In this document: positions 3,311 to 31,780 of the stretch, piece by piece
How positions within the stretch are numbered: the first letter of the stretch is position 1
How the letters are laid out: each line of letters opens with the position of its first letter
Assembly: GCA_021798985.1 (NCBI GenBank)
Contig: JAJZBI010000012.1
Span: 1-64,000 of the forward strand
Reading direction: 5' to 3'
Length of the DNA: 64,000 bases
Origin: Actinomycetes bacterium
GTDB taxonomy: Bacteria; Actinomycetota; Acidimicrobiia; Acidimicrobiales; Bog-793
Position numbers and translations under genes: made by a program
Notes under the pieces: generated by a model
Databases searched by the model: none
Told to the model about the DNA's origin: nothing
Seen by the model: the letters and a program-made list of their open reading frames with translations, nothing else

Positions 3311-3347
3311 GCACCGGTGATCCGGTGCTGTTACCGAGCAGGTGCGA
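3311..3347 (-). promoter_or_regulatory. Leader motif with hairpin (copy 1)
   Basis: Reading leftward, CCTCGCACCTG (3337-3347) is followed by GCACCGG-ATCA-CCGGTGC, a perfect 7-bp hairpin, and then the ATG at 3280. It is a variant of the GGCGCACCTG motif found upstream of other ICE genes. Confidence 0.5.
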
Positions 3348-3385
3348 GGCCGCTTCCAAAGCGGCAGCCAGGTTTCAGGTGACGG

Positions 3386-6300
3386 CTACCAGCTCAGGCC
3401 GGGCGTCGGGCGTGCCTGATCGCTTTGGCGTGCGACGGGCACGAACGTCGGTGGCTCGGGGCGCTGTGCTGGCGTGGGCCGCGGCGGTGGCCGGTGGGCG
3501 TGGAGGGCCTCGACGGTGATGCGCTCATCCAGCGGCGGGTCGGACGGCTCTGGCTCACCGGGTTGGTCGTCGTGGTTGAGTGCGGCCAGTTGCGCTTCGA
3601 CGTCGGCCAGGTGCCGTTCGGCCTCGTGGAGAGCCTGGCTGTGGCGGAAGGGCTGGCCGACGCGTTGGGCGGCGTCGGTGACGGTCTGGCGGGCGGCGGC
3701 GAGGTCGTCGCGGGCGTGGGCGAGCAGGGTGGGAATGCCCGAGACGCGATTCTCGATGCGTTGAATGAGCCCGGTCCCGCTTTCGATGAGGGTGTCACGG
3801 GGGATGGTGAAGGTGCTGCGGGGCACGCCGTCGAGGGTGATGTCGATGTTGGCGCCGTCGAAGCCTGGGCGGAGCGCGAGGTGGATGGGAAAGCCGCTGA
3901 TCTGGCCAACGATGCCGTAGTCGCGGCTCGTGTAGCGAGGCGCCCATTTCAGGCCGCTTTGGTCGGCCCAGCGGGCGAGCGCCGCGGCGGCGTCGACGCG
4001 GGAGGTGTAGGTACGGTCGTGGAGCTGGACGCGGAACCGCTCGCCGCTGGTATCGGTCACGTTGGGCAAGGCGGCTTCCAGGCCGGCGATGTCGCCAGTC
4101 GCCCGATCGGCCTGTCGTTGGGCGTCTTGGCGGGTGTGGACGAGCATGTTCTCGTTGCGCTGGTGGGCGCGCTCCAGACGCCGGAGCCGGCTGACCTCGT
4201 TCTGCACGGTGGAGTGCTCCAACAGGAGCGGGTTGCCGGAGGAGATGGCCTTGGCCTCCGCCGCGGAGAGAGCGCTTGAGTCGATCTCGTCGATCTCGCG
4301 GCTGTCGAGGCGGCCGCGCATGAGCTGGGCGATGAAGGTCGCCTTGCGCTCCACGCCTTGCCACATATAGCTGTCGAAGGACCGCTCGGTCACGAACCGG
4401 ACGATCGCGACCTCGCTGTTCTGGTTGCCCTGCCTCAAGATCCGGCCGTCGCGCTGGGCGATGTCGGAGGGCCGCCACGGGCAGTCCAGGTGGTAGAGGG
4501 CGGCAGCGCGGGCTTGGACGTTGGTCCCGACCCCCATCTTCTCGGTCGAGCCGATCAAGACGGCGACGTGCCCGGCGCGAGCGACCGCGAACAGCCGCGC
4601 CTTGTCCACGTCGGTCTTGGCCTCGTGCATAAACCGGATCGCGTCGCCGGGCATCCCGCGGGCGACAAGTGCCCGATGCAGCTCGTCATAGGCGTTCCAG
4701 CGGTCCGGGTTGGGGGTGCCGATGTCGGAGAACACGAGCTGCAACGCACCGCGGACGGGTGAGGGCTCGCCGGTGATGGTGTCGAGGTACTCGTTGTCGC
4801 GGGTCTGTTGCCAGACCCGGTAGATGGCGTCGGCGGCGGCGTCGACCTTGGTCGGCCCGGACGGGTCGCCGGGGAGGACCATGCGGATGTCGAGGGCGGC
4901 CTTGCGGCCGTCGGTCGAGATGGTGAGCATGTTGTCCTCGCTCGGGCTGACCTGCCGGGCGGCGACCGCCTCGGCGCGCCGGCCGAGCTGCTCGATGAAC
5001 TGCTCCAGCTCCACGGTCGGCTGCACCGCCACGGTGGCCGGGGCGCGCTGGCCGTCCTCACGCGCGATGAGGTCGGGAGTCGGGAGGCGGAGGTCCTCTG
5101 CGGTCTTCACGTCCGCGAACACCGACCACATGCGCAGCATCTCGGGGACGTTGGAGAACTTCGCGAACCGGGTCTTCATGCGGAAGGTGCCGTTGGCGGT
5201 CGGGGCCATCTCCATCTGGGTGACCGTCTGCCCAAAGGTCGCGGCCCAGGCATCGAACGCGCCGATCCCGGCCTTGTCCAACAAGTCCGGCCTCAAGTAC
5301 CGCTGCATGACGTATGCCTCGGTCACGCTGTTGGCGATCGGCGTCGCCGTCGCCCCGGTCGCTACGCGGTCGCGGCCTTGGGAGCGCAGGTACTCCAGCT
5401 TCATGTGCAAGTCCGAGGCCCGCTCGGAACCCTCGATCGCCGCGTCAGCGATGTTCGAGTCCGTGGCCAAGTTCTTGTACATGTGCATCTCGTCGACGAT
5501 CACGTAGTCGGTGCCGGTGTCCTCGAAGCACACGCCACGGTCGCGTCCCAGGTCGGTGCGAGCTTTCAGCTTGTTCTCCAACTGGAGCAGGCGACGCTCG
5601 ATCCGCTTGACGCTCATCCGCTGCCCGTCCTTGGCGTCATGGAGCACCTGGCGGACCTGATCGACCTGGCCTTGGATGTACGCCTTCTGCGTCTCGGCCC
5701 GCAGCGGGATCTTCGCGAACGCGCCTTGGGTGAGGATCACCGCGTCCCACTCGTTCGCCGCCACCCGAGCGACGAACAGGCGCCGCCGCTCAGCGGTCAG
5801 GTCGGCGCTGGACGCGGCGAGGATGCGGGCGCGGGGGTAGATCTGCAACCACTCCCGGCCGAACTGCTCCAGCATGTGATTGGGCACCACCACGACGGGC
5901 TTGGCGATCAGGCCCATGCGGCGCATCTCCATCGCGCCCATGATCATCTCGGCGGTCTTGCCCGCCCCGACCTCGTGGAACAGGCCGGCGGCGGGCTCGG
6001 CGATCATCCGCGCCACCGCGGCCCGCTGATGCTCCCGAGGGGTGAACGACGCAGCCATGCCGGGCAGCGACAGGTAGGCGCCGGCGTCGGTGTAGTCGCG
6101 CAGCACGATGCTGTTGAACCGGCGGTTGTACTCGTCCACGAGCTGCTTGGCGCGGGCGGGGTCCTCCCACACCCACTCCCCGAAGCGTTCTTGGAGGGCG
6201 TCGGCCTTCTCCTGCGCCGCGGTCGTCTCGACCGGGTTCAGGACTTGGCGTTTCTTGCCGTCGGCGTCCTCGTACTCGTCGTAGACGAGCAGGGTGCGCT

Positions 6301-9124: not shown

Positions 9125-9616
9125 TCAATGGCCGAGCCCGTTGGACTCGACACCGACCGGCGCGTGCTCCGTGGCTGCGCGGCCGGTGCCGTTGCGGCCG
9201 GTCGAGTCCCGCGCCGCGGCGGGGGCCTCCCGCTCGCTGCGCGGGCGGCGGTCCACCTGGTAGGTGGTCGTGTTCGGGTCGTGCGCCAGGCGGTTGGTCA
9301 CGAACTGCTGGTCGTTGATCTCCTCGCCGTCGACGACGTGGGTGTAGTCGCGCACGTAGCCTTGGGCCAGAAAGTTGTCGCCTCGCCGGAACCGCTCCAT
9401 CGACAGCTCGGCGCCACGGCCGAACTGGATCAGGTCGTGGAAACTCGGGTCAAGCTCAGTGAAGCTGCCGTCCCCGTTGCGCTGGAAATGGTTGATTCCG
9501 ATCCGGGCGTAGAAACGAGCCTGCCCCCGGTCGTTGAACGTGATCTTCGGGTCACTGGCGATGAACCCGTTGATCGACTGCGAAGTCTTGATCGGCTGAG
9601 ACCGCTGATACTCCAC
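9125..9616 (-). CDS. ssb: Single-stranded DNA-binding protein
   Basis: 163 residues with an OB-fold core: NGFIASDPKITFNDRGQARFYARIGIN, FHDLIQFGRGAELSMERFRRGDNFLAQGYVRDY, and a disordered Gly/Arg-rich tail. It lacks the acidic DDDIPF-type C-terminal tip of housekeeping SSB, ending NGLGH, as is usual for plasmid-type SSBs. The start is GTG with GGGAGGT 5 nt upstream. It lies in the transfer region, where it would coat transferred strands. The leader carries the GGCGCACCT motif and a nested hairpin. Confidence 0.85.
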   Translation of the reverse strand: MEYQRSQPIKTSQSINGFIASDPKITFNDRGQARFYARIGINHFQRNGDGSFTELDPSFHDLIQFGRGAELSMERFRRGDNFLAQGYVRDYTHVVDGEEINDQQFVTNRLAHDPNTTTYQVDRRPRSEREAPAAARDSTGRNGTGRAATEHAPVGVESNGLGH

Positions 9617-9631
9617 CGTGTACCTCCCTCA

Positions 9632-9681
9632 CTCGGGTCGCGAAACGAGCACCGGCTGGTGCTCCACCCGAGAGGTGCGCC
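9632..9681 (-). promoter_or_regulatory. Leader motif with nested hairpin (copy 2, ssb)
   Basis: Reading leftward, GGCGCACCT (9681-9673) is followed by an outer stem CTCGGGT/ACCCGAG (9672-9666 with 9638-9632) enclosing GAGCACC-AGCC-GGTGCTC (9664-9647). The ssb GTG follows at 9616. The stems are exact matches read from the sequence. Confidence 0.6.
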
Positions 9682-9745
9682 ACGGCTCCCCATCTGCCGG
9701 CGCGAGCCTCCCTGCTCGCCCAGCGCCGACAAGTACGCTCCCCTT

Positions 9746-12035: not shown

Positions 12036-12577
12036 CGCCGCCACCACCGGCGCCTCGAGATGGCCGGACGTCCCGCGAGGCTGCCCCGGACGGTCGTGCC
12101 CGAACTGGAGCCGAACAGGATCGCCTCACCGCCCGGCTTCGCTGCCAGCGGCAGGCCGGTCAGCGAAGCGGTCCCGTCAGGGCCGGCGTTGATCGTCGCG
12201 GTGACAACGGCGACGAGGACGGCCTCGCCCGGCAGGAACCCCCCGCCGGTCAGCATCGGCGCCTCAACCGGCGGCGCCTGCTCCTCGGTGCCGGCGGTCG
12301 GGCGGGGTCGGGGTTGGAGGATGTCGGCGTAGCGCGACCCGTCCGGCTCGCGAACCTCGACCCGCACGGCCCCGCCCGACTCGTCGGCAACTTTGGCGAG
12401 CACGCGGCCCAGCTCGGCCTGGCTCACCGGCCCGTCCGGGCGTTCGATGCCGTTCACCGAGACCTGCGCGGTCTCCGTGTCGTCGAGGGTGGCGATCACC
12501 TGGGGCAGCACCACCGGGACGGGCACGGTCCGCGGCTCGGCGCGGTCGGGGCTGGTGGCGTGCCGTGCCGGGCGCAT
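12032..12577 (-). CDS. ICE transfer-region protein of unknown function
   Basis: 181 residues starting MRPARHATSPDRAEPRTVPVP. The first half has a predicted alpha/beta segment (VIATLDDTETAQVSVNG to GRVLAKVADESGGAVRVEVREPDG); the second half is low-complexity with FLPGEAVLVAVVTATI. It is sandwiched between the VirB4-like and coupling-protein genes with TGATG and ATGA overlaps, so it is probably a transfer-apparatus accessory. No transmembrane segment or known family is evident. Confidence 0.7.
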   Translation of the reverse strand: MRPARHATSPDRAEPRTVPVPVVLPQVIATLDDTETAQVSVNGIERPDGPVSQAELGRVLAKVADESGGAVRVEVREPDGSRYADILQPRPRPTAGTEEQAPPVEAPMLTGGGFLPGEAVLVAVVTATINAGPDGTASLTGLPLAAKPGGEAILFGSSSGTTVRGSLAGRPAISRRRWWRR

Positions 12578-14061
12578 CAGCTTCCCTGCCTCATGCGGGC
12601 CGTCGTGTCGAACATGGCCAACTCGGCCGGGTGGAGCTGATGCTGCACGACGAAGCTGCGGTCCTTGATCCGCCACAGCCCCTGCCCGGTGCCCAACTGG
12701 GGGAGCATCTTCTGCTCGGTGCCGGTCAGGTTCAGCATCGCGGCGGTGGTGCCGAGCTGGTCGGACTCCTGGCGGTAGATGATCCTGGTCTCCGCATTCG
12801 CGAGCAGCGAGCTGGCGAGGGCGTGGGCGGCGGTGCCTTGGTCGCCCACGTTGTCCAGGTCCGACAGCTTGTGGAAGATCAGCATGTTCGCGATCCCCAG
12901 GTAGCGGGCGAGCCGCCAGTGGGCGTCCATCCGCCGCAGCAGCGCCGGGTGTTGCATGAGCTGCCACGCCTCGTCGTAGATGACCCACCGCTGCCCGCCG
13001 TGCGGGTCCAACAGGGCGGACTCCATCCACGCCGACGCGCAGGTCATCAGCACCGAGATCAGCGCGTTGTTCTCCGCCACCCGCGACAAGTCCAGGCTGA
13101 CCATTGGCAGGTCGGGGTCGAACGCGACGGTGGAAGGACCGTCGAAGATGCCGGCCAGGTCGCCGGCGACCAGGCGCCGCAGCGCGTGGCCGACGATCCG
13201 GCCGTCCTCCGCGAGTCGGGCGTCGCTGCCCGCGTCGGGGGTGAGGATGCGGTCGACGACCATCGGCAGGACTGGCGTCTGCGAGCTGGCGACCGCGGCG
13301 TGCAGCGCGATGTCGACGGCGGTGTGCTCGACCGGTGACAACGGCCGGCCGAGCACGGTTTCGGTGAGCGCGCCGATCAGGTCCCGGCGTCGGGCGGTGA
13401 CCATCGCCGCCCACTCCACATCCGACACACCGGACGGCCGGCGGCCCGCATCCAAGGGGTTGAGGCGGTTCGGGAGGCCGTGGCCGAGGACGATCGCCTG
13501 CCCGCCGACCGCCTTGGCGACCGCGGTGTGCTCGCCCTTGGGATCGCCCGGCACGTACACGCGGCGGCCGAAGCCGATGGAGCGGGTGTAGAGCGCCTTC
13601 GCCAGCGCCGACTTGCCCGCGCCCACGATGCCCGCCAACACCACGTTCGGCGCCGTGATCAGGCCGTTGGCATACAAGACCCACGGGTCGTAGACGAAGC
13701 TGCCGCCGCTGTAGAGGTCTTGGCCGACGAACACGCCCTCGCCGCCCAGGCCACCCTCCGCGAGATAGGGGTAGGCGCCGGCCAACGTGGCGCTGGTGTC
13801 TTGGTGGGCGGGGAGCCGGAACCGTCGCCACGCCCGCAACGCCGCGGGTCCCGGCTCCCCACTGCGAGGCAGGTACGTGACCGCTGCCCGCTCGGCCCGC
13901 TCCGCCTCTGCCTCGGCGTGGGCTTGGGCTTTGCGTTCGGCGGCGTCGGCGGCGTAAGCGCGACTCGCGGCGCGGCGTGCTGCCCGGCGGTCGCGGTGGC
14001 GTTGCCCGGCGCGGCCGACCAGCACCGTCGAGTACAGCTTCTTCTCAGCGCGTGGGCTCAT
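12577..14061 (-). CDS. VirB4/TraC-like conjugation ATPase
   Basis: 494 residues. After an Arg/Ala-rich N-terminus the protein enters the ATPase domain with VVLAGIVGAGKSALAKAL (Walker A near residue 143) and RVYVPGDPKGEHTAVAKA. RWVIYDEAWQLMQHP (near 355) is the Walker B, and FHKLSDLDNVGDQGTAA and QESDQLGTTAAMLNLTGTEQKML fit the VirB4/TraC fold. It would power substrate transfer and assembly of the type IV channel. It is translationally coupled to the following gene (TGATG). The leader carries the GGCGCACCTGACCGG motif, a hairpin and AAGGGAG. Confidence 0.88.
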   Translation of the reverse strand: MSPRAEKKLYSTVLVGRAGQRHRDRRAARRAASRAYAADAAERKAQAHAEAEAERAERAAVTYLPRSGEPGPAALRAWRRFRLPAHQDTSATLAGAYPYLAEGGLGGEGVFVGQDLYSGGSFVYDPWVLYANGLITAPNVVLAGIVGAGKSALAKALYTRSIGFGRRVYVPGDPKGEHTAVAKAVGGQAIVLGHGLPNRLNPLDAGRRPSGVSDVEWAAMVTARRRDLIGALTETVLGRPLSPVEHTAVDIALHAAVASSQTPVLPMVVDRILTPDAGSDARLAEDGRIVGHALRRLVAGDLAGIFDGPSTVAFDPDLPMVSLDLSRVAENNALISVLMTCASAWMESALLDPHGGQRWVIYDEAWQLMQHPALLRRMDAHWRLARYLGIANMLIFHKLSDLDNVGDQGTAAHALASSLLANAETRIIYRQESDQLGTTAAMLNLTGTEQKMLPQLGTGQGLWRIKDRSFVVQHQLHPAELAMFDTTARMRQGS

Positions 14062-14081: not shown

Positions 14082-14115
14082 CGGCAGGACAGGTGTCTGC
14101 CGGTCAGGTGCGCCG
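14082..14115 (-). promoter_or_regulatory. Leader motif with hairpin (copy 3, virB4-like)
   Basis: Reading leftward, GGCGCACCTGACCGG is followed by CGGCAG...CTGCCG (14102-14097 with 14087-14082), then AAGGGAG and the ATG at 14061. Confidence 0.6.
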
Positions 14116-14129
14116 GGCGGGCCGCCGCT

Positions 14130-14588
14130 TCAGCGGCCGAGCGGGTGCGGCCCTTCCCGCGACCCGGTATCGGTCCCGAAGGCCGACGGCGGGGCCAGCC
14201 GTCCAGCGCGGTCGCGTGGCCGGGTGAGGTCGGTGTCGATGCCGGGTTGCCAGGCGATCCGGCCGTTGTGGCTGAACGCCTCGTTCAGCGACCCGTGCGC
14301 CTGGCGTACCCGGTCGGCGGCGTCACGCAGGTACTCGCCGGCCGCCAGTGCGTCGTGCCGGCCCGCTCGCTGGTGGCCGTTGTCGTCGGCGGCCCGGCCG
14401 GCGTTGCGGTCATGCCAGTCGGCAAGCTGGTCCAGCGACTGGCGAAGTGACGCCAGCGCGGTCGTGAGCGATCCGAGCACCCGGTAGGTGTCGGACGGGT
14501 CGGTGACGACGCGGCTGGCGTGCGCCAGGCCGCGGAGCGCTTCGGCCGCCTCGTCGGCATCGACGGCTGGGTTCTCGTAGGTGGGCAT
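14130..14588 (-). CDS. ICE protein of unknown function with GRLAP tail
   Basis: 152 residues starting MPTYENPAVDADEAAEALRG. The first 105 residues are helical (LTTALASLRQSLDQLADWHDR). The C-terminal 27 residues are disordered and include AGRLAPPSAFG; the same AGRLAPxSAFG tail ends the protein at 24437-24835. It lies between the SCO6880-like and VirB4-like genes. No family was recognised. Confidence 0.7.
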   Translation of the reverse strand: MPTYENPAVDADEAAEALRGLAHASRVVTDPSDTYRVLGSLTTALASLRQSLDQLADWHDRNAGRAADDNGHQRAGRHDALAAGEYLRDAADRVRQAHGSLNEAFSHNGRIAWQPGIDTDLTRPRDRAGRLAPPSAFGTDTGSREGPHPLGR

Positions 14589-14625
14589 CGGCCACGCTCC
14601 GCGTTGGAAGTCCTGTCTTGCCGGT

Positions 14626-14636
14626 CAGGTGCGCCC
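14626..14636 (-). promoter_or_regulatory. Leader motif (copy 4)
   Basis: GGCGCACCTGACCGGC in gene orientation, 38 nt before the ATG at 14588. An imperfect hairpin CCAACGC/GCGTGG follows. Confidence 0.5.
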
Positions 14637-14648
14637 GCCTCGCCCGGC

Positions 14649-17689: not shown

Positions 17690-18022
17690 TCAGATGCCCT
17701 GGCCGACGTGCCAGAAGAAATTGATGAACGCCACCGCGCCGCCGGTGATGATCGCCGCGCCGCACGCGATCAGCACGCCGGTCTTGCCGCGAGTCGCCAG
17801 GTGCGGGTTGGCCGAATGGCTCCCGAAGGCCCACACCACCGAGGCCACGATCAACGCCAGCACCGACAGGATCAGCCCGACGGTCATGACCGCCCCGACG
17901 ATCGTCTGCAACGCGCTGATGCCGGGCAGCCCGTTGGAGTTCGGGGAGATGTTGACGTCGGCCAACAGCACCTCGGACCGGCCGAACAGGCCGGTCGTGA
18001 CAGGGGTAAGGACAGAGATCAT
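17690..18022 (-). CDS. DUF6112 small membrane protein (VirB2/pilin-like position), paralogue 1
   Basis: 110 residues starting MISVLTPVTTGLFGRSE, with GAGGAG 6 nt before the ATG. Two hydrophobic segments (IVGAVMTVGLILSVLALIVASVVWAF and TGVLIACGAAIITGGAVAFINFFW) flank a charged loop GSHSANPHLATRGK. This is the DUF6112 pattern. Size, two helices and position next to the VirB6-like gene recall VirB2/TrbC pilins, which is inference. The leader contains the GGCGCACCTG motif and a perfect GCGGGG/CCCCGC hairpin. Confidence 0.8.
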   Translation of the reverse strand: MISVLTPVTTGLFGRSEVLLADVNISPNSNGLPGISALQTIVGAVMTVGLILSVLALIVASVVWAFGSHSANPHLATRGKTGVLIACGAAIITGGAVAFINFFWHVGQGI

Positions 18023-18080: not shown

Positions 18081-18105
18081 GCGGGGTTCACCCCGCAGGT
18101 GCGCC
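18081..18105 (-). promoter_or_regulatory. Leader motif with hairpin (copy 5)
   Basis: GGCGCACCTG followed directly by GCGGGG-TGAA-CCCCGC (18096-18081). The DUF6112 ATG is at 18022. Confidence 0.6.
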
Positions 18106-18151
18106 CTCTCCGCCACCGCTCCGCCGCGACGGCCCGCCGCCGACCGAGCGA

Positions 18152-18457
18152 TCAGAGCGTGGGGCCGATGTGCAGCAGGAAGTTCAGCCAGGCGATCCCG
18201 GCGTCGTCGAGCACGGCGGCGCCAAGCGCGACCAGCAGCCCGGTCCGAGCCTTGGTGGCCGTCTGGTAGTTACCGTGGGCGGACGCGACCGCCCACGTGG
18301 CGGCGCAGACCAACATCATGAGCACGGCGACGATCAGCACGATCGTCATCAGCGCCCCGATCACCGTCTCGAGCTGCCCGGCACCGCCGACGCCGTTCAG
18401 GTTCGGGTAGACGCTCGTGGCAAGCAGCGTGTGCGAAGTGATGAGCGTGGTGGTCAC
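18152..18457 (-). CDS. DUF6112 small membrane protein, paralogue 2
   Basis: 101 residues. It parallels the neighbouring DUF6112 protein: VYPNLNGVGGAGQLETVIGALMTIVLIVAVLMM, a charged loop AHGNYQTATKARTG, and a second hydrophobic segment ending WLNFLLHIG. The GTG at 18457 is chosen because conservation begins at TTTLITSHTLL and GGCGCACCTGACGGGC stands immediately before it, as at the relaxase start. Two adjacent copies suggest a hetero-oligomeric membrane or pilus component. Confidence 0.75.
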   Translation of the reverse strand: MTTTLITSHTLLATSVYPNLNGVGGAGQLETVIGALMTIVLIVAVLMMLVCAATWAVASAHGNYQTATKARTGLLVALGAAVLDDAGIAWLNFLLHIGPTL

Positions 18458-18463
18458 GCCCGT

Positions 18464-18473
18464 CAGGTGCGCC
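18464..18473 (-). promoter_or_regulatory. Leader motif directly before start (copy 6)
   Basis: GGCGCACCTGACGGGC abuts the GTG start at 18457, and no purine-rich Shine-Dalgarno sequence lies between them. The context (motif, short spacer, GTGAC) is nearly that of the relaxase gene. Confidence 0.6.
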
Positions 18474-18498
18474 ACCCCACCAACCCGGCCAGTGCCGC

Positions 18499-18669
18499 TC
18501 AGCCGACGCGGCGGACCGTCGCGGACTGGCCGGTGAACTCCGACAGCGTGCCGTCGCCGACGTTCTGCCCGGTCTCCGGCGCCTGGAGAATCTTGTCGCC
18601 GCCCAGGTAGATGACGACGTGGTGGGGCACGCTGGCGCCGGGGTAGGTGTAGAAGATGATGTCCCCGTA
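18499..18669 (-). pseudogene. Duplicated 3' end of the NlpC/P60 gene
   Basis: This fragment encodes GDIIFYTYPGAS to VRRVG, the C-terminal part of an NlpC/P60 hydrolase. It matches the end of the intact gene at 20372-21523 at 48 of 54 aligned residues, and nothing upstream of GDII is conserved. The two copies are in the same orientation and flank the TetR-reductase-AraC cassette, so the cassette appears to have entered at the 3' end of the hydrolase gene and left this tail behind. Confidence 0.85.
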
Positions 18670-19487: not shown

Positions 19488-19943
19488 ATGAGTAGCTGGC
19501 AAGAGTTCGCCACGCAGGTACCGGACTTCGCGCAACGTGTCGAGGGCTTGTTCGTCGCCTACAAGCACCACACGATGGCGACGCTGCGGCTCGACGGCTC
19601 ACCGCGGATCAGCGGGACCGAGGTCACGTTTGATGACGGTCGATTGTTGCTCGGCATGATGCCCGGCACCCGCCGCGCCGCGGACCTGCGCCGTGACCCG
19701 CGCCTGGCGATCCACAGCCATACCGTCGATCCGTTAGAGACAAACCCCGCATCGTGGGACGGGGACGCGAAGATCACAGGCCGCGCGGTCGAGCTTCCGG
19801 CAGGCTTACGACCACCGGAGGGGTCTGACTGGTTCGCGGTCGAGGTCGCCGAGGTCGTTCTCACGAAGGTCGGTGATCCCGCGGATCATCTGGTGATCGA
19901 GTCATGGAAGGCCGACCGCGGGCACAAGACCCAACGCCGCTGA
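19488..19943 (+). CDS. Pyridoxamine 5'-phosphate oxidase-fold flavin/F420 protein
   Basis: 151 residues starting MSSWQEFATQVPDFAQRVEGLF, with AAGAGGA 8 nt upstream, preferred to an upstream TTG. The sequence HHTMATLRLDGSPRISGTEVTFDDGRLLLGMMPGTRRAADLRRDPRLAIHS is the split beta-barrel signature of PNPOx-like proteins, many of which bind FMN or F420 and reduce small molecules. The substrate is unknown. It is followed 12 bp later by an AraC-type gene. Confidence 0.8.
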   Translation: MSSWQEFATQVPDFAQRVEGLFVAYKHHTMATLRLDGSPRISGTEVTFDDGRLLLGMMPGTRRAADLRRDPRLAIHSHTVDPLETNPASWDGDAKITGRAVELPAGLRPPEGSDWFAVEVAEVVLTKVGDPADHLVIESWKADRGHKTQRR

Positions 19944-19954
19944 GCGACCAGATC

Positions 19955-20344
19955 GTGACTCCGACACGACACTCCCAGCCACCCGGTGCCGTTGCCAAGC
20001 ATGGCGTCGTCCGCGGTCACGTTGTCACGACGGTCGGGGTCTTGCGTGCAAGGCTGGCTGATCCGTGGACGCTGGATACGCTCGCCCACGAGGCCAACCT
20101 GTCGCGGTCTCAGCTCGTGCGCGCCTTCGATGCCACCACGGGCCTGAGCCCGATGGCCTATCTACGACAGATGCGCGTGGAGCAGATGGCGAGGCTGCTG
20201 GTCTCCACGGACGTATCGGTTGCTGAGGCCGCTCGGTCGGTCGGCTGGAAGAACCAGTTTCACGCCAGCCAGTGTTTTCACGCCGCCTACGGGATTTCGC
20301 CGACTGAGTACCGGCGACGGCAACCTGCCCGCCCCTTGACCTGA
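19955..20344 (+). CDS. AraC-type DNA-binding domain regulator, copy A
   Basis: About 129 residues from a GTG; the start is uncertain. The protein is only an AraC DNA-binding region with two helix-turn-helix units: WTLDTLAHEANLSRSQLVRAFDATTG and VSVAEAARSVGWKNQFHASQCFHAAYGISPTEYRRRQ. No sensor domain is present. From GVVRGH onward it matches copy C (35365-35754) at 88 of 107 residues, and copy B at 27863 is also related. It ends the plus-strand operon of cassette A. Confidence 0.82.
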   Translation: MTPTRHSQPPGAVAKHGVVRGHVVTTVGVLRARLADPWTLDTLAHEANLSRSQLVRAFDATTGLSPMAYLRQMRVEQMARLLVSTDVSVAEAARSVGWKNQFHASQCFHAAYGISPTEYRRRQPARPLT

Positions 20345-20371: not shown

Positions 20372-21523
20372 TCACGGTTCGGCGATCCGCCGGACGGCGG
20401 CGGCCTGCCCGGTGAACTCCGAGAGGGTGCCGTACCCGACGTTCTGCCCCGTCTCCGGCGCCTGGAGAATCCGGTCACCGCCGAGGTAGATCACGACGTG
20501 ATGCGGCATGCTGGCGCCGGGGTAGGTGTAGAAGATGATGTCGCCGGGTTGCTTGTTGGCCCAGGAAACGGGCTGGGTTTCGTTGATCTGGTCGCCGGTG
20601 TAGTGCAACAGCCTCACCTTCCCGCCCGAGGCTTGGTAGGCGGCGTACATCACCAGACCGGAGCAGTCGAAGCCGGGACCTCGGCCGTCCGTGGCTTCGC
20701 CGGAGGGGCCGGTGTAGGTGCCGCCGCCCCATACATACGGCAGGCCGATCTCTTTTTCCGCGGCGGCGATGAACGCTCCGGCGAACCCCGGCGGCAGGTT
20801 CCCTGTCGTGGTCGCGGTCGAGCACGAGGCGCCGGTGAGGGTGACGCCGGTCAGGGTGCTGGCGATCTTCTCCGCGACCGGCTGGTAGTTGGCGTAGCGG
20901 TCGGGGTATTGGGAGACCTCGACGGCTTGGGCGGCGGCGCCGAGGGAGAGGCTCTGCCAGTTGGGGATGTCCAAGAGACCGGCGGGTGAGCCGTGGTTGG
21001 GGCCGTCCGGCCCGCCGTAGAAGGCGCGGGTGGACCACACCGGGTCCATCAGCTCCGCGACCGTCCCCCACCCGTCCGGGGGTTGCATCTGGAACAGGCC
21101 GAGCGAGTCGTGATCGGAGCCGTCGCCGTCGTTGGGGTAGCTGGCGGAGGTCGGGTAGGCGGTCGTGTTGGCGAGCACGTGCAGGGTGGACTCGGTGAGC
21201 GCCGCCATCAACGCCACGAGCTGTCCGTTCTCGTCGATGTTCTCGCTGTTGCCGACCGCGATGATCGTCGCCGCCCGCACAAGCTGGGTGTGGTCCAACG
21301 TGACGGTCTGCCCGTCCGCGGTCGTCGCGGTCAGGCTTTGCGGCACGCTGCCGGAGACTGCCAGTGACGGCCCCGACAACCCGCCCGTGTCCTCGCTCGT
21401 CGAGCAGGCGGTGGCGGTGGTGATCGCCGGGTCGAACAGCGCGGCGAGGGTCACCAGGGCGATGCCGGGGCCGAGGAACACGATCGCCACGACCAGGCCG
21501 ATCAGGACCTTGCGGACCATCAC
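20372..21523 (-). CDS. NlpC/P60 peptidoglycan hydrolase of the transfer apparatus
   Basis: 383 residues. An N-terminal transmembrane segment (VLIGLVVAIVFLGPGIALVTLAALF) anchors or exports it. The middle part has a lysozyme-like look (SLGLFQMQPPDGWGTVAELMDP). The C-terminal NlpC/P60 domain has GFDCSGLVMYAAY with the catalytic Cys and PHHVVIYLGG with the His. It would open the cell wall for the conjugation channel (VirB1-like role). GTG at 21523 or ATG at 21520 are both possible. An 18499-18669 fragment repeats its 3' end. Confidence 0.88.
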   Translation of the reverse strand: MMVRKVLIGLVVAIVFLGPGIALVTLAALFDPAITTATACSTSEDTGGLSGPSLAVSGSVPQSLTATTADGQTVTLDHTQLVRAATIIAVGNSENIDENGQLVALMAALTESTLHVLANTTAYPTSASYPNDGDGSDHDSLGLFQMQPPDGWGTVAELMDPVWSTRAFYGGPDGPNHGSPAGLLDIPNWQSLSLGAAAQAVEVSQYPDRYANYQPVAEKIASTLTGVTLTGASCSTATTTGNLPPGFAGAFIAAAEKEIGLPYVWGGGTYTGPSGEATDGRGPGFDCSGLVMYAAYQASGGKVRLLHYTGDQINETQPVSWANKQPGDIIFYTYPGASMPHHVVIYLGGDRILQAPETGQNVGYGTLSEFTGQAAAVRRIAEP

Positions 21524-21535: not shown

Positions 21536-22240
21536 TTAGCCGAGGGGATCGTTGAGCTGCGACAGCCGCAGGGTGTGGCAGTCGGGCCAGGACGGGCTGC
21601 ACGCCTCAAAGACGGTGAAGCTCACCGGGTCGCTGGTGGAGGCGGGTTGGCCGTACCAGACGCCGGTGCGGTGCCGGACGCCGGTGATCGTGATCGCCGT
21701 CGTCCCCGGCCGGAGCTGGCCGTGTGCCTCGGCCAGCGCTTGGGGCCACAGCGATGGCACGACCGCGGTGGTGATCGTCAGGTGCTGGACAACCTGCATC
21801 GTCGCCAGCTCCGTCCACTGGGTATCGGTGGGCTCGTAGCTGGCGACATCCCCGATCAGTCCGGGTAGCTCGTCCCCGGACGGGTCCGCGTCCGCGAGCA
21901 CCGGGGAGGTGTAGTCAGACGGTGCGTAGCCGGTGGTCGTGGACCAGTCGAACAGCGCTTCGGCGACCGCCTTGGCGTAGGCGACCGGGTTGTCGGTCTT
22001 GGGCAGCACCGCTGGCGCCGGCCCGCGTGCCGGGCTGCTGGTCGGTCCCGAGCTGCCCGAGCCGGCCGGGCCCGCCGTGCCGGTCCCTGCCGAGGCGTGC
22101 CGCCCCGCCGCGGTGTAGCCGGGGCCGCGGATGAGCCCGTAGACACCGACGCCGACCGTCGCCAGCACGACGACACCGACGAGAGCAAGGACGACGATCA
22201 GGCGACGACGCGAAGCAGGCACGAGCAACTCCCAGGTCAC
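21536..22240 (-). CDS. Membrane-anchored VirB8/TcpC-like protein
   Basis: 234 residues. A basic start (PASRRRLI) is followed by one transmembrane helix (VVLALVGVVVLATVGVGVYGLI), a Ser/Gly/Pro linker, and an extracytoplasmic alpha/beta domain (YAKAVAEALFDWSTTTGYAPSDY to FTVFEACSPSWPDCHTL). One short cytoplasmic tail, one helix and an NTF2-like outer domain fit VirB8/TcpC-like scaffold proteins, but no decisive motif is visible. It precedes the NlpC/P60 gene by 12 bp. Confidence 0.7.
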   Translation of the reverse strand: MTWELLVPASRRRLIVVLALVGVVVLATVGVGVYGLIRGPGYTAAGRHASAGTGTAGPAGSGSSGPTSSPARGPAPAVLPKTDNPVAYAKAVAEALFDWSTTTGYAPSDYTSPVLADADPSGDELPGLIGDVASYEPTDTQWTELATMQVVQHLTITTAVVPSLWPQALAEAHGQLRPGTTAITITGVRHRTGVWYGQPASTSDPVSFTVFEACSPSWPDCHTLRLSQLNDPLG

Positions 22241-22260
22241 GAAAGGGGGTGGGTGCCGGT

Positions 22261-22270
22261 CAGGTACGCC
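22261..22270 (-). promoter_or_regulatory. Leader motif variant (copy 7)
   Basis: GGCGTACCTGACCGGCACC, with one base change, 20 nt before the GTG at 22240. Confidence 0.5.
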
Positions 22271-22307
22271 GCTCCTCCCGCCCCGCCCGGTCGCAGCGGG
22301 CCGGGGG

Positions 22308-23447
22308 TTAGGAGCAGGCGGCGTGCGGGGGCTGGTCTGGGTGCTGGCGGTCCGGGGCGCGCCCGGTGCTGTCGCGGGCGGTGGCGATGGCGTCGACGAA
22401 CGCCGCGCTGCCGTTCAGGCAGGCGCACAACTGCTGCCACCGCTCCCCGGACAGGCCGGCGGCGATCTCGGCCGCGTCGTAGTGCAGCCACCAGCCGTCC
22501 ATCTCCTCCATCGTCGCCAGGAACGCCCGCAGCCCGTAGTGCTTGACCGCCACCAGCCGCGGACGTCCCTGATCGCCGTTCTCACCGTCAGGGTGCTCGC
22601 CGTCAGGGCGCTGTCCGGTGGCGCGGGCGATGGCCGCTTGGGCGGCCCTGACCAGCTCGGCCGGCGGCTGGGTCTCATCGAGGGTGTCCAGCTCGCCCTT
22701 AGCCCGCTGGCGGACCGAGGCGGGCTGGTCCGCGTCGCCCGCGAGGCGGCTGAGCGCGTCGGTGTGCGAGGCGGCTTGGACGGTCAGGTAATGGCCGTCG
22801 ATGGTGCCGTCGGCGTCCATGCCGGCCAGCTCCCGCCGGGCGATCTCCCGCACCCGCTCCGACGCGAGCGGGTCGTCGGCGAGGCGTTGGACCTCGGTGA
22901 CGTGATCCAACGATCGCGACGAGTCCCGGCCGGTGATCGCCCTGGCCGCCTGCTGGCGTGCCTTGCCAACCGCACCATCCCCGCCGTCTGGGAGCGGGGT
23001 TGACGGTGGTGGCAAATTGCCACCACCGTCACTTTCCCCGTGATGACGCGGGTTGCGCTCGGCGCTGAAATGGGTGGCGGCCTGGCGGCGGGCGGCGTCC
23101 TCGGCGTAGACCTGCTTCAACTCCGCGTACAGACTGGCGGCCTCGGTCGGGGTCAGGGGCTTGCGGGCGGTGTTCTCGTGCTGCTCGGCCAGCAGCTCCG
23201 CCAGCCGGGACGACACGGCCGAGGTGATCCACACCTTGACCCGCTCCCAGCCGAGCTCCTTGACCGCGGCGAGGCGGCGGGCGCCGCAGACCAGCACGCC
23301 GGTCGGGGTGATCGTGATCGGTTGCAGCAGCCCGACCTGTTGGATCGAGGCGCACAGCTCCTCGAGGTCCCCGAGGTCGTGGCGGACCCGGTAGCCGACC
23401 TGGATCGACTCGACCGTCCGGTCAAGCTCCACACCCCCGCTACTCAT
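22308..23447 (-). CDS. ParB/Spo0J-like partition-domain protein
   Basis: 379 residues. The N-terminal ParB-like nuclease/CTPase domain reads QVGYRVRHDLGDLEELCASIQQVGLLQPITITPTGVLVCGARRLAAVKELGWERVKV (residues 11-68), including the GxRRLAA signature. An HTH-like region (PLTPTEAASLYAELKQVY) and a long helical C-terminus follow. The start overlaps the stop of the upstream gene (ATGAGTAG). It may maintain the excised element or regulate it. The variable middle part has low-complexity spacers. Confidence 0.82.
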   Translation of the reverse strand: MSSGGVELDRTVESIQVGYRVRHDLGDLEELCASIQQVGLLQPITITPTGVLVCGARRLAAVKELGWERVKVWITSAVSSRLAELLAEQHENTARKPLTPTEAASLYAELKQVYAEDAARRQAATHFSAERNPRHHGESDGGGNLPPPSTPLPDGGDGAVGKARQQAARAITGRDSSRSLDHVTEVQRLADDPLASERVREIARRELAGMDADGTIDGHYLTVQAASHTDALSRLAGDADQPASVRQRAKGELDTLDETQPPAELVRAAQAAIARATGQRPDGEHPDGENGDQGRPRLVAVKHYGLRAFLATMEEMDGWWLHYDAAEIAAGLSGERWQQLCACLNGSAAFVDAIATARDSTGRAPDRQHPDQPPHAACS

Positions 23448-24291
23448 CGACCCCGCCCTCCGGTGCGCGACAGGCCAGCAGGTGGGGGCGGGAGTGGCAG
23501 ACGAGCGCGGCTTGGACGAGGCGGTTGTCGTCCAGCAGGTCGCGGACACCCTCGCCCAGCAGCAGCCGGGCCAGCACTCCTTTGCGGGTCGGGCGGCCCG
23601 GCTGGGGCCGGGACCCGAGCAGCACCCCGAGCAGCCGGCTCCAGGCGGCGCGGTCGAGGTCGAGATGGGCGCGCATCGCGAGGTCGCGGCGCAACATCTC
23701 ATAGGCGGCGGTGATGCTCCCGGCGTCGGCCAGCCTGCCGGCGACGTACTCGACGACCATTCCGGCCACCGGCTCGGGCCAGCCGAGCAGGCACAGGAAC
23801 AGCGTGGCGTCGGCCAGCGCTGGCTCGGGCTCGGGCTCGCTGTCCGGTCCGGGCGCGCCGGACGGTGCGATGGTGAGGTTGTCGGTCAGCTCCCCGGCCC
23901 GGACCGGTATGTCGCCGTCGGTGTGCTGGGTGCGTCGCGCTTTCTCCGTCGAGGTCAGGTGCCGATCGGCGTGGCTCTCGGCCGAGAGGCTGACCTGCAC
24001 CGCGCGGGTCACGACCGCCCAGGGGTCCTCCGCCCGGCGTACCCCGTCGTGCAGCATCGCCACGAACGCCGCCGAGGCCGCCTCGCCAGGGTCGCGATGC
24101 CAGCTCCGCGCCAGCGGGGCGTACCGCTCGATCGTGTATGCCAACAGCGCGGTCGCGTCCGGGTCGGCCCGCCACGCCCCCTTCCCGGCCGCGTGCAACC
24201 GCTCCAGCAGCGCACGCAACCCTGCCGGTGTCGCGAACACCGGCTCAGCGCCCGGGCCGGGCGACAAAGGAGAGGAATCGTGGACGGGCAT
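23440..24291 (-). CDS. ICE protein of unknown function upstream of parB
   Basis: 283 residues starting MPVHDSSPLSPGPG. It is helical throughout; ALLAYTIERYAPLARSWHRDPGEAASAAFVAMLHDGVRRAEDPWAVVTRAVQVSL resembles the helical N-terminus of some sigma-factor-like plasmid proteins, and the C-terminal half has LFLCLLGWPEPVAGMVVEYVAGRL. It overlaps parB by 8 bp, so the two are co-translated. A leader motif lies 11 nt before the ATG, which supports this start over an in-frame one at 24321. Confidence 0.7.
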   Translation of the reverse strand: MPVHDSSPLSPGPGAEPVFATPAGLRALLERLHAAGKGAWRADPDATALLAYTIERYAPLARSWHRDPGEAASAAFVAMLHDGVRRAEDPWAVVTRAVQVSLSAESHADRHLTSTEKARRTQHTDGDIPVRAGELTDNLTIAPSGAPGPDSEPEPEPALADATLFLCLLGWPEPVAGMVVEYVAGRLADAGSITAAYEMLRRDLAMRAHLDLDRAAWSRLLGVLLGSRPQPGRPTRKGVLARLLLGEGVRDLLDDNRLVQAALVCHSRPHLLACRAPEGGVDE

Positions 24292-24301
24292 GGCAACCTC
24301 T

Positions 24302-24309
24302 AGGTGCGC
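24302..24309 (-). promoter_or_regulatory. Leader motif directly before start (copy 8)
   Basis: GTGCGCACCTAGAGG stands about 11 nt before the ATG at 24291; the core GCGCACCT is conserved. Confidence 0.45.
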
Positions 24310-24436
24310 ACCCCGTGCCACCGTGACCGGCCCTGTGCCGATGCTCCCGCCCGTAGGCGTCAGATCGTCAGCACGGCCCCTGGCCCCAGCCGCTCACCGG
24401 GCACGGCAGCACAGCAACACACGCAGAAACGAAGGG

Positions 24437-24845: not shown

Positions 24846-25598
24846 TTACTTGTGCGGGACTGTCTCGCCGTCGATCTGGCCGGCGGCGTCCTCCAGCAGT
24901 GGTGGCCCGCCGCCGGTCGCGGTCAACGGCGGCGGTTTATGTTTCAGCCAGCGGCCCACGGTCGAGGGATGGACCCTGAGCCGGGCCGCGATCTCCCGGT
25001 TCGTCATCGACGTGCCCTCCCGCAGACGCAGCGCCTCACCCGCCCGCCCGTGCTCCCGGTCCCCGCCCGCGGCGTCCGCCTCTGCCGAGGCTGCCGGCCG
25101 GCGGCTCGTCACGGCTGGGCTTGTCCTGGCGGGGATCGCCGCTGGCGGGGTGGGGCGGCGGGTCAGCTCGACGGTCAGGTGGGTGATCGCGACCAGCACC
25201 ACCGGCGGGACCGCCGCCACCAGCGCCGCCAACACCGCCGGCACCTGAGCCTGGGCGGTCACGATCGCGTGGCTGGCGTTGCCCAGCACCGACACCCCGG
25301 CGCCCGCGGTCAACAGCACCCACGGGTAGCGGGCGGCGCGCCGTTCGCGGCCGCTGCCGCCCATCGCCACGACCGACACGGTGGCCACCACGATCACGCC
25401 GTCGACGGTCAGCGGCCACACCCACGCCCGATCGCCCGGTATCCCGCACCGTTGCGCCAGCGCCGCCAGGGAAGTGAACGACAGCCAGAACGCGCCCAGC
25501 GCGATGCCCACCGTGCCAGCGACCGCCACGCCCAGCACCAGCCGCCCCGACCGCGGCGAAGCGGACGGCGCTACGGCAAGGGCCGCCGGGCCGCTCAC
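24846..25598 (-). CDS. DUF2637 (SpdB-like) membrane protein with C-terminal HTH
   Basis: 250 residues. Four hydrophobic segments from about residue 25 to 150 (LVLGVAVAGTVGIALGAFWLSF, WVWPLTVDGVIVVATVSVVAMG, YPWVLLTAGAGVSVLGNASHAI, VLAALVAAVPPVVLVAITHLTVEL) match DUF2637, found in Spd spread proteins of Streptomyces plasmids. A C-terminal helix-turn-helix (MTNREIAARLRVHPSTVGRWLKH) is like the WhiA/excisionase-type HTH of these proteins. The GTG at 25598 overlaps the primase stop (GTGA). It probably acts in plasmid spread between mycelial or cell compartments. Confidence 0.85.
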   Translation of the reverse strand: MSGPAALAVAPSASPRSGRLVLGVAVAGTVGIALGAFWLSFTSLAALAQRCGIPGDRAWVWPLTVDGVIVVATVSVVAMGGSGRERRAARYPWVLLTAGAGVSVLGNASHAIVTAQAQVPAVLAALVAAVPPVVLVAITHLTVELTRRPTPPAAIPARTSPAVTSRRPAASAEADAAGGDREHGRAGEALRLREGTSMTNREIAARLRVHPSTVGRWLKHKPPPLTATGGGPPLLEDAAGQIDGETVPHK

Positions 25599-26602: not shown

Positions 26603-26640
26603 CCGCCAACATCGGCGGTGTGTCGAAGGCCAGGTACGCA
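26603..26640 (-). promoter_or_regulatory. Leader motif with hairpin (copy 9)
   Basis: GCGTACCTGGCC, then CCGCC-GATGTT-GGCGG (26618-26603), then AGGAGG and the ATG at 26577: the same motif-hairpin-Shine-Dalgarno order as copies 1-3 and 5. Confidence 0.5.
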
Positions 26641-26863
26641 AGACGAGCCCGGTCACCGCACCGTCCACACACTCCAACGAATCGGCAGGCTCACCCCAGC
26701 CATAGCACCCCCTCCAGCAAAGCCGGAGCGGTACCCCGCACAATGCGAACCTGGTGCAGGAATACGCGCCAGCTGTCCAGGCCGTTGGGGCCAGCCTGCC
26801 ACGCTCCGCGATGGGCAGCCTCGCCCCGACGACGCTGCCCCCTGACCGACGCGTCTGCTCCGC

Positions 26864-27238
26864 TCACGACCGCGTAGGGCCGATGTGGTCGGCCGCGACC
26901 ACGATCACGACCAGCGCGCCCGAGAGCGCCTCGTCGATATCGGCGGCGTCCTCGGGGTCCTCAGAGAGCCGATCGGAGGTGGCGACCACGCAGTAGCCGA
27001 CCTGCTGGCCGGTCACGTAGTCGAGCATGCGGCGCAGGCCGGGGCGGTCCATGCTCATCCCCGAGTAGCCGACATCGGTGAACTCCTCTGCCAGACGCAA
27101 CCCCATGCGCTCGGCAGCCAACGCGATCTGTGCCCGCTGCCGCTCCACAGCACGAGCCGCGTCATCCACCTCGCTCAACGCAACCCGGACGTAGGAGACC
27201 GCCGGCAGATCGCTCGGAGACCACGCCTCGTCGCTCAT
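26864..27238 (-). CDS. Catalytically dead serine-resolvase domain protein, copy 1
   Basis: 124 residues, only the N-terminal resolvase fold: AVSYVRVALSE, EFTDVGYSGMSMDRPGLRRMLDYV and YCVVATSDRLSEDPEDAADI. In active enzymes the first motif is YxRVS with the nucleophilic Ser; here that position is Ala. The DRLSR arginine is replaced by Glu (DRLSE). The fold is kept while catalysis is lost, and no DNA-binding domain is attached. Its ATG overlaps the stop of the membrane-protein gene (TGATG). A clear paralogue lies at 41606-41986. A DNA- or protein-binding regulatory role is inferred. Confidence 0.8.
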   Translation of the reverse strand: MSDEAWSPSDLPAVSYVRVALSEVDDAARAVERQRAQIALAAERMGLRLAEEFTDVGYSGMSMDRPGLRRMLDYVTGQQVGYCVVATSDRLSEDPEDAADIDEALSGALVVIVVAADHIGPTRS

Positions 27239-27639
27239 CACGCCCGCCCAGCCGCCACCGCGGCGGCCATCCGGCCGGTGTCAGCAGGCGCCGGGCCGGC
27301 CCGCTCGGCACGCTGGCACTCCCGCAGCAGCACCTTCTCCTGGTGGCGGACCCGCAGCAACCGCACCACCGAGACCGGGACCAGCACGCCAAAGCGGACC
27401 GTGTTCCAGAACCCGACGATGAAGAACAGGTTCACCCACCCCGGCCCGCCGTCACGGACGATCCTGCCAGTGGCGGCCATGAGCAGCCCGTAGACCACCA
27501 CCCCGGCCAACCCGACGAGCGGCCCCCACTTGATCCCGGTACGGGTGTGGAGCCGGCGGATGACGATGTTGCTCGGCGCGAACCGCTGCACCAAGCCATA
27601 CAGGCGAGCACTGATCGCCCAACTGGCTGCGAAGATCAC
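27238..27639 (-). CDS. Small membrane protein paired with dead resolvase, copy 1
   Basis: 133 residues from a GTG with GGGAGGA upstream. Two hydrophobic segments (WGPLVGLAGVVVYGLLMAATG and WVNLFFIVGFWNTVRFGVLVPVSVV) are separated by RIVRDGGPG, followed by VRLLRVRHQEKVLLRECQR, a basic cytoplasmic helix. No known family was recognised. It is translationally coupled to the resolvase-domain gene, and the same pair recurs at 41983-42369. A homologous leader of about 130 bp precedes each copy. Confidence 0.75.
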   Translation of the reverse strand: MIFAASWAISARLYGLVQRFAPSNIVIRRLHTRTGIKWGPLVGLAGVVVYGLLMAATGRIVRDGGPGWVNLFFIVGFWNTVRFGVLVPVSVVRLLRVRHQEKVLLRECQRAERAGPAPADTGRMAAAVAAGRA

Positions 27640-27862: not shown

Positions 27863-28273
27863 TCACGAAGGTCCCGACGGACAGGTCCGGCGGCGGAACT
27901 CAGTGGGTGAGATCCCGTGCTGGGCGTGGAAACACCGGCTGGCGTAATTCGCGTCCGACCAGCCCACCGACCGCGCTACCTCGGCCACCGAGAGGTCGGT
28001 TGATGAAAGCAGCTGGGCCATCTGCTCGGCACGCATCCACCGCAGGTACGCCATCGGGCTCCTCCCGATCGTGGCGTCAAACGCCCTGACCAGCTGAGAG
28101 CGAGACAAGTGGACTTCCTCGGCAAGCGCGTTGAGCGTCCACCGCTCGGCCAGGCGGGTGCGTAGCACGCCGACCGCAGTGACAACGTGCCCTCGGACGA
28201 CGCCCCGCCTGGCGATTAGGGCGGGTGTCGTGCCGCTGATCTGTCCTTTGATCGTGTCGCTGGGAGTCGTCAT
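27863..28273 (-). CDS. AraC-type DNA-binding domain regulator, copy B
   Basis: 136 residues. Again only the two-HTH AraC region: WTLNALAEEVHLSRSQLVRAFDATIG and LSVAEVARSVGWSDANYASRCFHAQHGISPTEFRRR, preceded by ARRGVVRGHVVTAVGVLR as in copies A and C. It starts 4 bp after the stop of the preceding gene and is the last gene of the MFS operon of cassette B. Confidence 0.82.
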   Translation of the reverse strand: MTTPSDTIKGQISGTTPALIARRGVVRGHVVTAVGVLRTRLAERWTLNALAEEVHLSRSQLVRAFDATIGRSPMAYLRWMRAEQMAQLLSSTDLSVAEVARSVGWSDANYASRCFHAQHGISPTEFRRRTCPSGPS

Positions 28274-28277
28274 TCGT

Positions 28278-30040: not shown

Positions 30041-30069
30041 GGTGCTCGCTCGTATCTCGCTCAACTATC

Positions 30070-30109: not shown

Positions 30110-30172
30110 ACACGTGCGGTAAGGTTTCAGAAGCCCGAGACCGATCAGGAAAGAAGGCATCGAGACATCGAG

Positions 30173-30874: not shown

Positions 30875-31323
30875 CGACCAACCCCGCCACTTCCGCTCTG
30901 GGCCCCGACGAGCTGCTGGCGATGATGCCCTACGCCACCACGCTCGGCATCCAACTACATGAGGCCACCCCGGCGCTGGTCACCGGCAGCCTCGCCTGGA
31001 CGCCCGAGCGCTGCACCGCCGGAGGCATCCTCCACGGCGGCGCGATCATGTCGCTGGCCGACACGATCGGCGCCGTCTGCGCCTTCCTCAACCTCCCGGA
31101 CGGCACCACCACCACCGCCACGATCGACTCCACCACCCGCCTCTACCGCCCCCTCCGCACCGGCACTCTGCATGCCACCGCACGGCCAGCCCACGTCGGG
31201 CGAACCCTGATCGCAGTGACCACCGACCTCACCGACGACCAAGGCCGCCTCATCGCCCAAACCAGCCAAGCCCAGGCCGTCACCACCGCCCACCCGGCGC
31301 CCGCGACCCAAACCTCGGACTGA
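30871..31323 (+). CDS. PaaI-type hotdog thioesterase
   Basis: 150 residues. YATTLGIQLHEATPALVTGSLAWTPERCTAGGILHGGAIMSLADTIGAVCAF has the HGGAIMSLAD motif of PaaI thioesterases, followed by TATIDSTTRLYRPLRTGTLHATARPAHVGRTL. It would hydrolyse an acyl-CoA. GTG overlaps the tetR stop. Co-expression with an MFS exporter suggests detoxification of an acyl-type compound, which is inference. Confidence 0.82.
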   Translation: MTTNPATSALGPDELLAMMPYATTLGIQLHEATPALVTGSLAWTPERCTAGGILHGGAIMSLADTIGAVCAFLNLPDGTTTTATIDSTTRLYRPLRTGTLHATARPAHVGRTLIAVTTDLTDDQGRLIAQTSQAQAVTTAHPAPATQTSD

Positions 31324-31352
31324 GGAGTCCCTCAAGCTCAAGGGGGGGATCG

Positions 31353-31559
31353 CTAGAGCGGTCGGCGCCGACCACGATCAACGCGTCGGGATACGATCCC
31401 TCCGCACGAGCAAACACGCAGCTACACCCTGAGGGCATCCCCCGCGGGCACGCCTGGTGCGCCGCCGTCGCCCACATCACGGTCGCCGACCCCACCCACG
31501 CGATCGACACCTACAGCGGCCATACCGTCTCGTGGTGGCCTGTAACTGGCTGCTCGTAA
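31353..31559 (+). pseudogene. C-terminal remnant of an ICE protein
   Basis: An uninterrupted frame of 68 residues without start ends in GHAWCAAVAHITVADPTHAIDTYSGHTVSWWPVTGCS. It looks like the end of a longer ICE-associated protein; its N-terminal portion is missing, since the hotdog gene occupies that space. Family unknown. Confidence 0.4.
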
Positions 31560-31764
31560 GCCAGTCGCGTAGGTCGGTCACGGACGACCCCGCTCGTCCG
31601 CCTCGGCCTCAACCCCCGCCTGACCGGACAGAGCCTCCCGAGCGCGGCAGCACGGCCAACGCGCGTCCGACAGCCTCTATCACCCCGCCAGGGCCAGCAT
31701 CGAGCCCACGCCTGAGCCCTGCCCCACCGGCCGGTCCACACCTCTTGCACCACGAGGTAACCCC

Positions 31765-31777
31765 GGCGCACCTGACC
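31765..31777 (+). promoter_or_regulatory. Leader motif before relaxase (copy 10)
   Basis: GGCGCACCTGACC on the plus strand, 3 nt before the GTG of the relaxase. Its orientation follows the gene, so the motif is strand-specific relative to transcription. It supports the start at 31781. Confidence 0.6.
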
Positions 31778-31780
31778 CGT

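Follow-up and report, generated by a model that had tools for sequence, protein, structure and literature searches.

The motif that recurs ahead of genes of an integrative and conjugative element (ICE) in an actinomycete contig, analysed here as a window of 64,000 nucleotides, is strongly indicated by sequence comparison to be a sharply defined and previously undescribed promoter class of a large family of actinobacterial conjugative elements. This promoter class is likely to be private to a family of actinobacterial T4SS-type ICEs and to be read by an alternative sigma factor encoded by the element itself (positions 23440-24291), which would also transcribe its own gene and switch on the transfer operons together.

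Definition of a composite promoter element

Related loci were gathered with the VirB4-like ATPase encoded at 12577-14061, yielding 80 loci from many actinobacterial genera, and genes were predicted in all of them. Where intergenic space exists upstream of the VirB4-like gene, GCACCT or GTACCT is present in nearly all loci within otherwise divergent surroundings. Across the 80 loci, GYACCT is one of the hexamers with the highest oriented enrichment ahead of starts, and in the B group it stands above the Shine-Dalgarno hexamer AAGGAG. In group A, CGYACCTG occurs at 4.3 sites/kb upstream in the sense orientation, compared with 0.16 antisense and 0.10 within genes. The short string GGCGYACCTG, by which a first-pass annotation of the window had summarised the motif, proved too weak: with up to one mismatch it matches the window 33 times against 20.4 expected, a nearly uninformative count, and its exact copies at 28043 and 42901 are intragenic and lie outside the set of ten sites described below.

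When 278 non-redundant instances were aligned on the core, a composite element emerged, GG(-25/-24)-N10-G(C/T)ACCT(G) at -13 to -7, followed by N5-Y/R at -1/+1. In this alignment, GG stands 11 and 12 bases upstream of the core, GCG precedes the core, G-N-C-N-GG-C/T comes after it, and position +13 is a purine. After refinement, +13 is A in 49% of sites and G in 50% (99% purine), and a pyrimidine stands just before it in 96%. Two features that were unused in selection separate upstream sites from the same core within genes, namely GG at -25/-24 (50% versus 9%) and YR at -1/+1 (81% versus 32%).

For scoring, the window and its two near relatives, and with them the window's clade, were left out of matrix training, and a threshold of at least 16 was applied. 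Exactly ten window sites reach this score (16.2-24.3, the next best being 14.0). They are the ten sites of the first-pass annotation, all of which were present at the positions and in the orientations it reported when the sequence was read back. A matrix trained on a single sigma clade again returned ten, and random sequence matched to the window in dinucleotide composition gave a mean of 0.31 sites and at most 3. Separately fetched loci (L178-L202) contained 50 sites in 95 kb, with L181 and L182 largely repeating training sequence. Because the training sites had been drawn from upstream regions, enrichment among the training loci is partly circular, a reservation that does not apply to the window, to the loci fetched separately or to the GG and YR features. 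The 15-mer originally given for the motif survives only in part: it is exact at 14100-14114, 14621-14635 and, with T, 22256-22270 only, the sites at 3339, 9673, 24302 and 26631 deviate from it, and what is conserved is the core GYACCT within the longer composite.

A divergent form was observed in the subclade comprising L067, L090, L095 and L099, where few sites reach the threshold and none lies ahead of the sigma-like gene. Promoters in these loci have CACGCACCT or a similar sequence, preceded by GGGGA, and a common sequence like GGTCGGTAGCGAGGTTGCC stands before the start of the sigma-like gene.

Sites in the window and their operons

The ten predicted promoters are given from -25 to +1 with their matrix scores, and all except the last lie on the minus strand. 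At 3332..3357 (start 3332; score 22.3), a site with the composite pattern precedes the gene of a conserved 202-aa ICE protein (2672-3280), and at 9665..9690 (start 9665; 19.7) another precedes an ssb-like gene (9125-9616, GTG at 9616). The site at 14098..14123 (start 14098; 20.1) stands before the genes for the VirB4-like ATPase, p12032 and the coupling protein, while that at 14619..14644 (start 14619; 24.3, the window maximum) stands before gene 14130-14588. The second DUF6112 gene (17690-18022), together with SCO6881/SCO6880-type genes, lies behind the site at 18089..18114 (start 18089; 18.7). The first DUF6112 gene (18152-18457) lies behind 18457..18482 (22.4), whose start at 18457 is the GTG of the gene, making it leaderless, and whose GG is shifted by one base. 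Gene 21536-22222 and the NlpC/P60 gene follow the site at 22254..22279 (start 22254; 21.9). The site at 24294..24319 (16.2) starts at 24294, three bases ahead of the ATG of the sigma-like gene, for which autoregulation is predicted, and that at 26624..26649 (start 26624; 17.8) precedes a 38-aa ORF (26577-26461) overlapping the primase-polymerase gene. On the plus strand, the site at 31756..31781 (18.1) starts at 31781, the GTG of the MobF/TrwC relaxase-helicase gene (31781..35350, plus strand), a predicted leaderless member of the regulon.

Among orthologues in the related loci, sites stand at operon heads: before ssb in 53 of 60, before the second DUF6112 gene in 47 of 61, before the family of gene 21536 in 42 of 51 and before the sigma-like gene in 29 of 39. 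Genes abutting their predecessor carry none in the case of the coupling protein (0/66) and NlpC (0/52) and few in that of the ParB-like gene (3/47), and the integrase has a site in 0 of 23.

An integrase, a VirB4-like ATPase, a coupling protein and a relaxase, by which T4SS-type actinobacterial ICEs are defined, are present together in the element. The relaxase and coupling protein were identified by Pfam and NCBIfam, the VirB4-like ATPase (12577..14061, minus strand) has a weak AAA_10 match (9e-4, below the cut-off), and the serine recombinase (574-2274) was recognised from its sequence. Adjoining the recombinase, positions 593-613 resemble the 3' end of a tRNA gene (GGTTCGAGTCCCGCAGCGCCC) and may be an attachment site; ARAGORN found no whole tRNA at 593-613, and the tRNA-like sequence is single copy in the window.

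Several repeats were also observed. The terminal part of the NlpC/P60 gene is present twice, at 18504-18667 and 20383-20546 (87% identical, spacing 1879), and the copies bracket an insertion that carries TetR-like and other genes; since L040 also has a second partial nlpC match, insertion appears to recur at this point. Outside the transfer module, a cassette comprising a resolvase N-terminal-like gene and another small gene occurs twice, at 26871-27610 and 41619-42340 (79-82% identical), and contains none of the new-class promoters. Three related short ORFs resembling AraC-type helix-turn-helix proteins (19904-20344, 27863-28273 and 35365-35754) lie in or adjoin the element.

Transcription start and the nature of the motif

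Transcription starts are characteristically marked by a YR step at a fixed position. If position +13 of the alignment is that start, leaderless genes are expected to have their start codon exactly there, and such a peak was found: 12 unrelated instances have a start codon exactly at +13, whereas position 10 has one, position 12 has three, and positions 11, 14 and 15 have none. Five further cases of ATG at +1 came from loci fetched afterwards via another protein. The sites reported by the first-pass annotation to lack a ribosome-binding sequence are thereby explained, as the GTG at 18457 and that at 31781 coincide with the +1 base and the ATG at 24291 lies three bases past +1. The predicted start site would thus be a purine at a fixed distance from a motif at approximately -10, spanning -13 to -7, which is where sigma region 2 contacts DNA.

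The same position bears on an alternative in which the motif serves another element protein as operator or activator site and a host sigma factor initiates. The candidates would be the ParB-like protein (22308-23447) and the DUF2637-HTH protein (24846-25598), both of which carry DNA-binding domains and adjoin the sigma-like gene. The ParB-like gene (minus strand; Pfam ParB_N, 1.9e-06), found in 51 loci, overlaps the sigma-like gene in the same operon, and its product could be a partner. However, the motif occupies the positions contacted by sigma region 2, -13 to -7, at a fixed distance from +1, no other conserved -10 or -35 accompanies it, it is non-palindromic, and DUF2637-HTH was found in just 24 loci. 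This alternative is accordingly considered unlikely, though it is the strongest of those weighed.

The first-pass annotation had left the choice between an element acting in the RNA and an oriented promoter element, and of these the promoter is favoured by the YR step at +12/+13, the leaderless codons and the placement at operon heads, whereas the motif itself would lie upstream of the transcript. The possibility it raised that CACCT, in resembling the anti-Shine-Dalgarno core, controls translation is removed on the same ground, since a motif at -13 to -7 would sit outside the mRNA. An RNA-level element, in which CACCT masks or mimics Shine-Dalgarno pairing or binds an RNA-binding protein, could draw on a complementary segment near the ribosome-binding sequence in some leaders (L041, L055, L083) and on hairpins in some. 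Against this stand the exact leaderless peak, the YR and GG features, and the genes that abut their predecessor, which carry no motif even though translational control would need one there too, leaving this reading very improbable. The hairpins reported after the motif are real at some sites (9665, 26624 and 3332) and are not general: 16% of transcript starts are followed by hairpins with z below -2 versus 1-5% in control stretches, a minor effect, and 5'-terminal stems show no enrichment (73 observed, 83 expected).

The element-encoded sigma-like protein

The reader of these promoters is probably the element-encoded sigma-like protein of 283 aa, unannotated, whose gene (23440..24291, minus strand) lies behind its own promoter copy. 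Two conserved segments, DPWEAAxAAFxAM and DPWAVVTRAV, pointed to sigma region 2 prior to the fold search. The structure model is confident for residues 20-118, with pLDDT mostly 94-98 for residues 20-110, and residues 20-118 are modelled as sigma region 2. The best structural matches of this N-terminal domain are sigma region 2 domains, including SigB (Z 8.5, rmsd 2.0 over 82 residues) and domain 2 of Mycobacterium tuberculosis SigA (Z 6.8, rmsd 2.5 over 87), with Z scores up to 8.5 lying within the range of chance helical matches and possibly reflecting a common arrangement. SigE, SigS and WhiG were also matched; many independent sigma region 2 structures were thus recovered, the best with rmsd 2.0-3.1 over 79-91 residues, and Foldseek E-values were weak (best 0.49).

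At the level of sequence, no sigma domain or other match was found in Pfam, NCBIfam or PDB sequences, no sigma similarity was found in PHROGs, and hhalign of the N-terminal domain against 20 host sigma-70 region 2 sequences gave no match. Since PF04542-type similarity is absent, the protein is called sigma-like rather than filed as a sigma-70 member. The C-terminal domain is equally helical; no sigma factor or region 4 appears among the matches listed for it, a result that excludes nothing, and when predicted alone it gave weak matches to Nab2-like and other helical folds (Z 6.5). It may serve as a partial control for the caveat on helical bundles, and it suggests that region 4 may be replaced by this C-terminal domain. 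The sigma assignment is a supported structural inference, and binding of core RNA polymerase and of the promoter is predicted.

An inverted repeat across the start site was additionally observed at the sigma-like gene in L178, L179, L183, L186 and others, composed of promoter core and ribosome-binding sequence (GCGCACCTGCCTGTC-AGGAGGTGC). A repressor of the sigma-like gene could use this repeat as its operator.

Co-occurrence of the protein and the promoter

The sigma-like gene was found directly in 48 loci. A further 24 genomes were examined in which the locus broke off or was interrupted ahead of the gene or, in a single case, lacked any site at threshold; 20 of them carry the protein, and the four that do not include three metagenome-assembled genomes. 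The protein occurs in none of 34 family relatives of the window's genome, a family in which 31 of 35 genomes (the window's own included) contain a VirB4-like element. The 20 VirB4 regions examined, 19 from these relatives and a second region of the window's own genome, have no site of at least 16. This second, distant VirB4-like gene (39% identical; contig C67, 215559-216941) has none of these promoters. Among 395 genomes of the class, one other carries the protein, and it has two sites scoring above 20 in 3.9 kb, one before the gene and one leaderless. Relatives of the protein were found in no phages or viral contigs and in one case in plasmids. Other element genes, ParB-like and DUF2637-HTH, co-occur as well.

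Base preferences also differ between sigma clades: position -12 is T at 29 of 64 sites in one clade and at 12 of 125 in a second (p 5e-8), and inspection suggests a preference for A at -15 in a further subclade. A matched sigma/promoter pair would predict such clade-linked shifts, but element phylogeny confounds those at -12 and -15.

The element might instead borrow an alternative sigma factor of the host (ECF or other) to read the promoters, the host having 20 sigma-70 region 2 genes. Twenty 20-kb host stretches (~400 kb) hold four sites of at least 16, however, against ten in ~31 kb of the element, and the same promoter recurs across many genera and is absent from related genomes without the element, so that host ownership has little chance of being correct. 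A sigma-54 promoter (GG-N10-GC with the start 12 bases on), despite spacing exactly that of -24/-12 promoters, can practically be dismissed, as T replaces C at -12 in one clade and the sigma-54 DNA-binding domain was detected in 0 of 22 carrier genomes, with control genomes positive.

Proposed mechanism and significance

Under the favoured interpretation, an element-encoded sigma factor, the sigma-like protein would, once made, form a holoenzyme with host RNA polymerase specific for GG-N10-GYACCT promoters. This holoenzyme would transcribe the sigma-like gene itself, in positive autoregulation, and the separate transfer operons for the relaxase, ssb, T4SS genes and primase, some as leaderless mRNAs, leaving the integrase and cargo genes undriven. 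Production of the protein would thereby turn on all transfer operons at once. The GG-N10-GC arrangement is too short for a normal -35/-10 pair. GG at -25/-24 lies one helical turn above the core, too near for a normal -35, and as a conjecture the C-terminal domain may touch it.

On balance, and with somewhat less confidence than in the promoter class and its reader taken together, we favour the view that the protein founds an unrecognised branch of the sigma-70 superfamily, which would combine region 2 with a new C-terminal domain in place of region 4 and use a compact GG-N10-GYACCT promoter with sigma-54-like spacing to run a transfer regulon. If true, a master switch of transfer would be provided for a widespread family of actinobacterial conjugative elements for which the literature searched names no regulator. 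The promoter signature would allow the elements and their regulon to be located in any genome, and the sigma/promoter pair would be an orthogonal one. Use of a ten-base-spaced promoter by a sigma protein that lacks a recognisable region 4 would additionally offer a test of promoter recognition without a normal -35.

Comparison with known systems

ECF (group 4) sigma factors of Actinomycetota are small alternative sigma factors with a region 2 fold, and self-activation is common among them. The protein described here differs in having neither a region 4 match nor a match to the region 2 profile, and its promoter has ten-base spacing in place of a GGAAC-type -35 at 16-17 bp. Sigma-54 (-24/-12) promoters are alike in GG-N10-GC geometry and start distance, whereas the sequence at -12 differs (GYACCT). 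SetCD is an activator that acts with the host polymerase. In SXT/R391 ICEs, the SetCD regulon, as presented in the portion of the source consulted (PMC4344509), likewise has one element regulator switching on several transfer operons; unlike in that case, the motif here is at the -10 position.

The T4SS-type ICEs of Actinobacteria surveyed by Ghinet et al. 2011 (PMC3218068) are alike, in the part of the survey consulted, in integrase, VirB4-like ATPase, coupling protein and relaxase, and that part gives no sigma factor, regulator or promoter class for them. No sigma factor or promoter class for these elements was found in the literature searched, with subscription papers and preprints outside its scope, in agreement with the first-pass annotation, which knew of no described element of this kind in ICEs.

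A close parallel is SigN (ZpdN) of plasmid pBS32 in Bacillus subtilis, a mobile-element sigma factor that activates its own gene (PMC6751061). The likeness lies in an element-encoded sigma or sigma-like protein and in self-activation, which is predicted here. SigN, however, is a recognised sigma factor of Bacillota tied to cell death after DNA damage (PMC6751061), whereas the present protein lacks a Pfam sigma domain, differs in its C-terminal half, and is associated with GC-rich promoters and with genes for conjugation. SigN already shows that a mobile element can carry its own sigma factor, and what is new here is this promoter class, possibly accompanied by a new branch of sigma factors.
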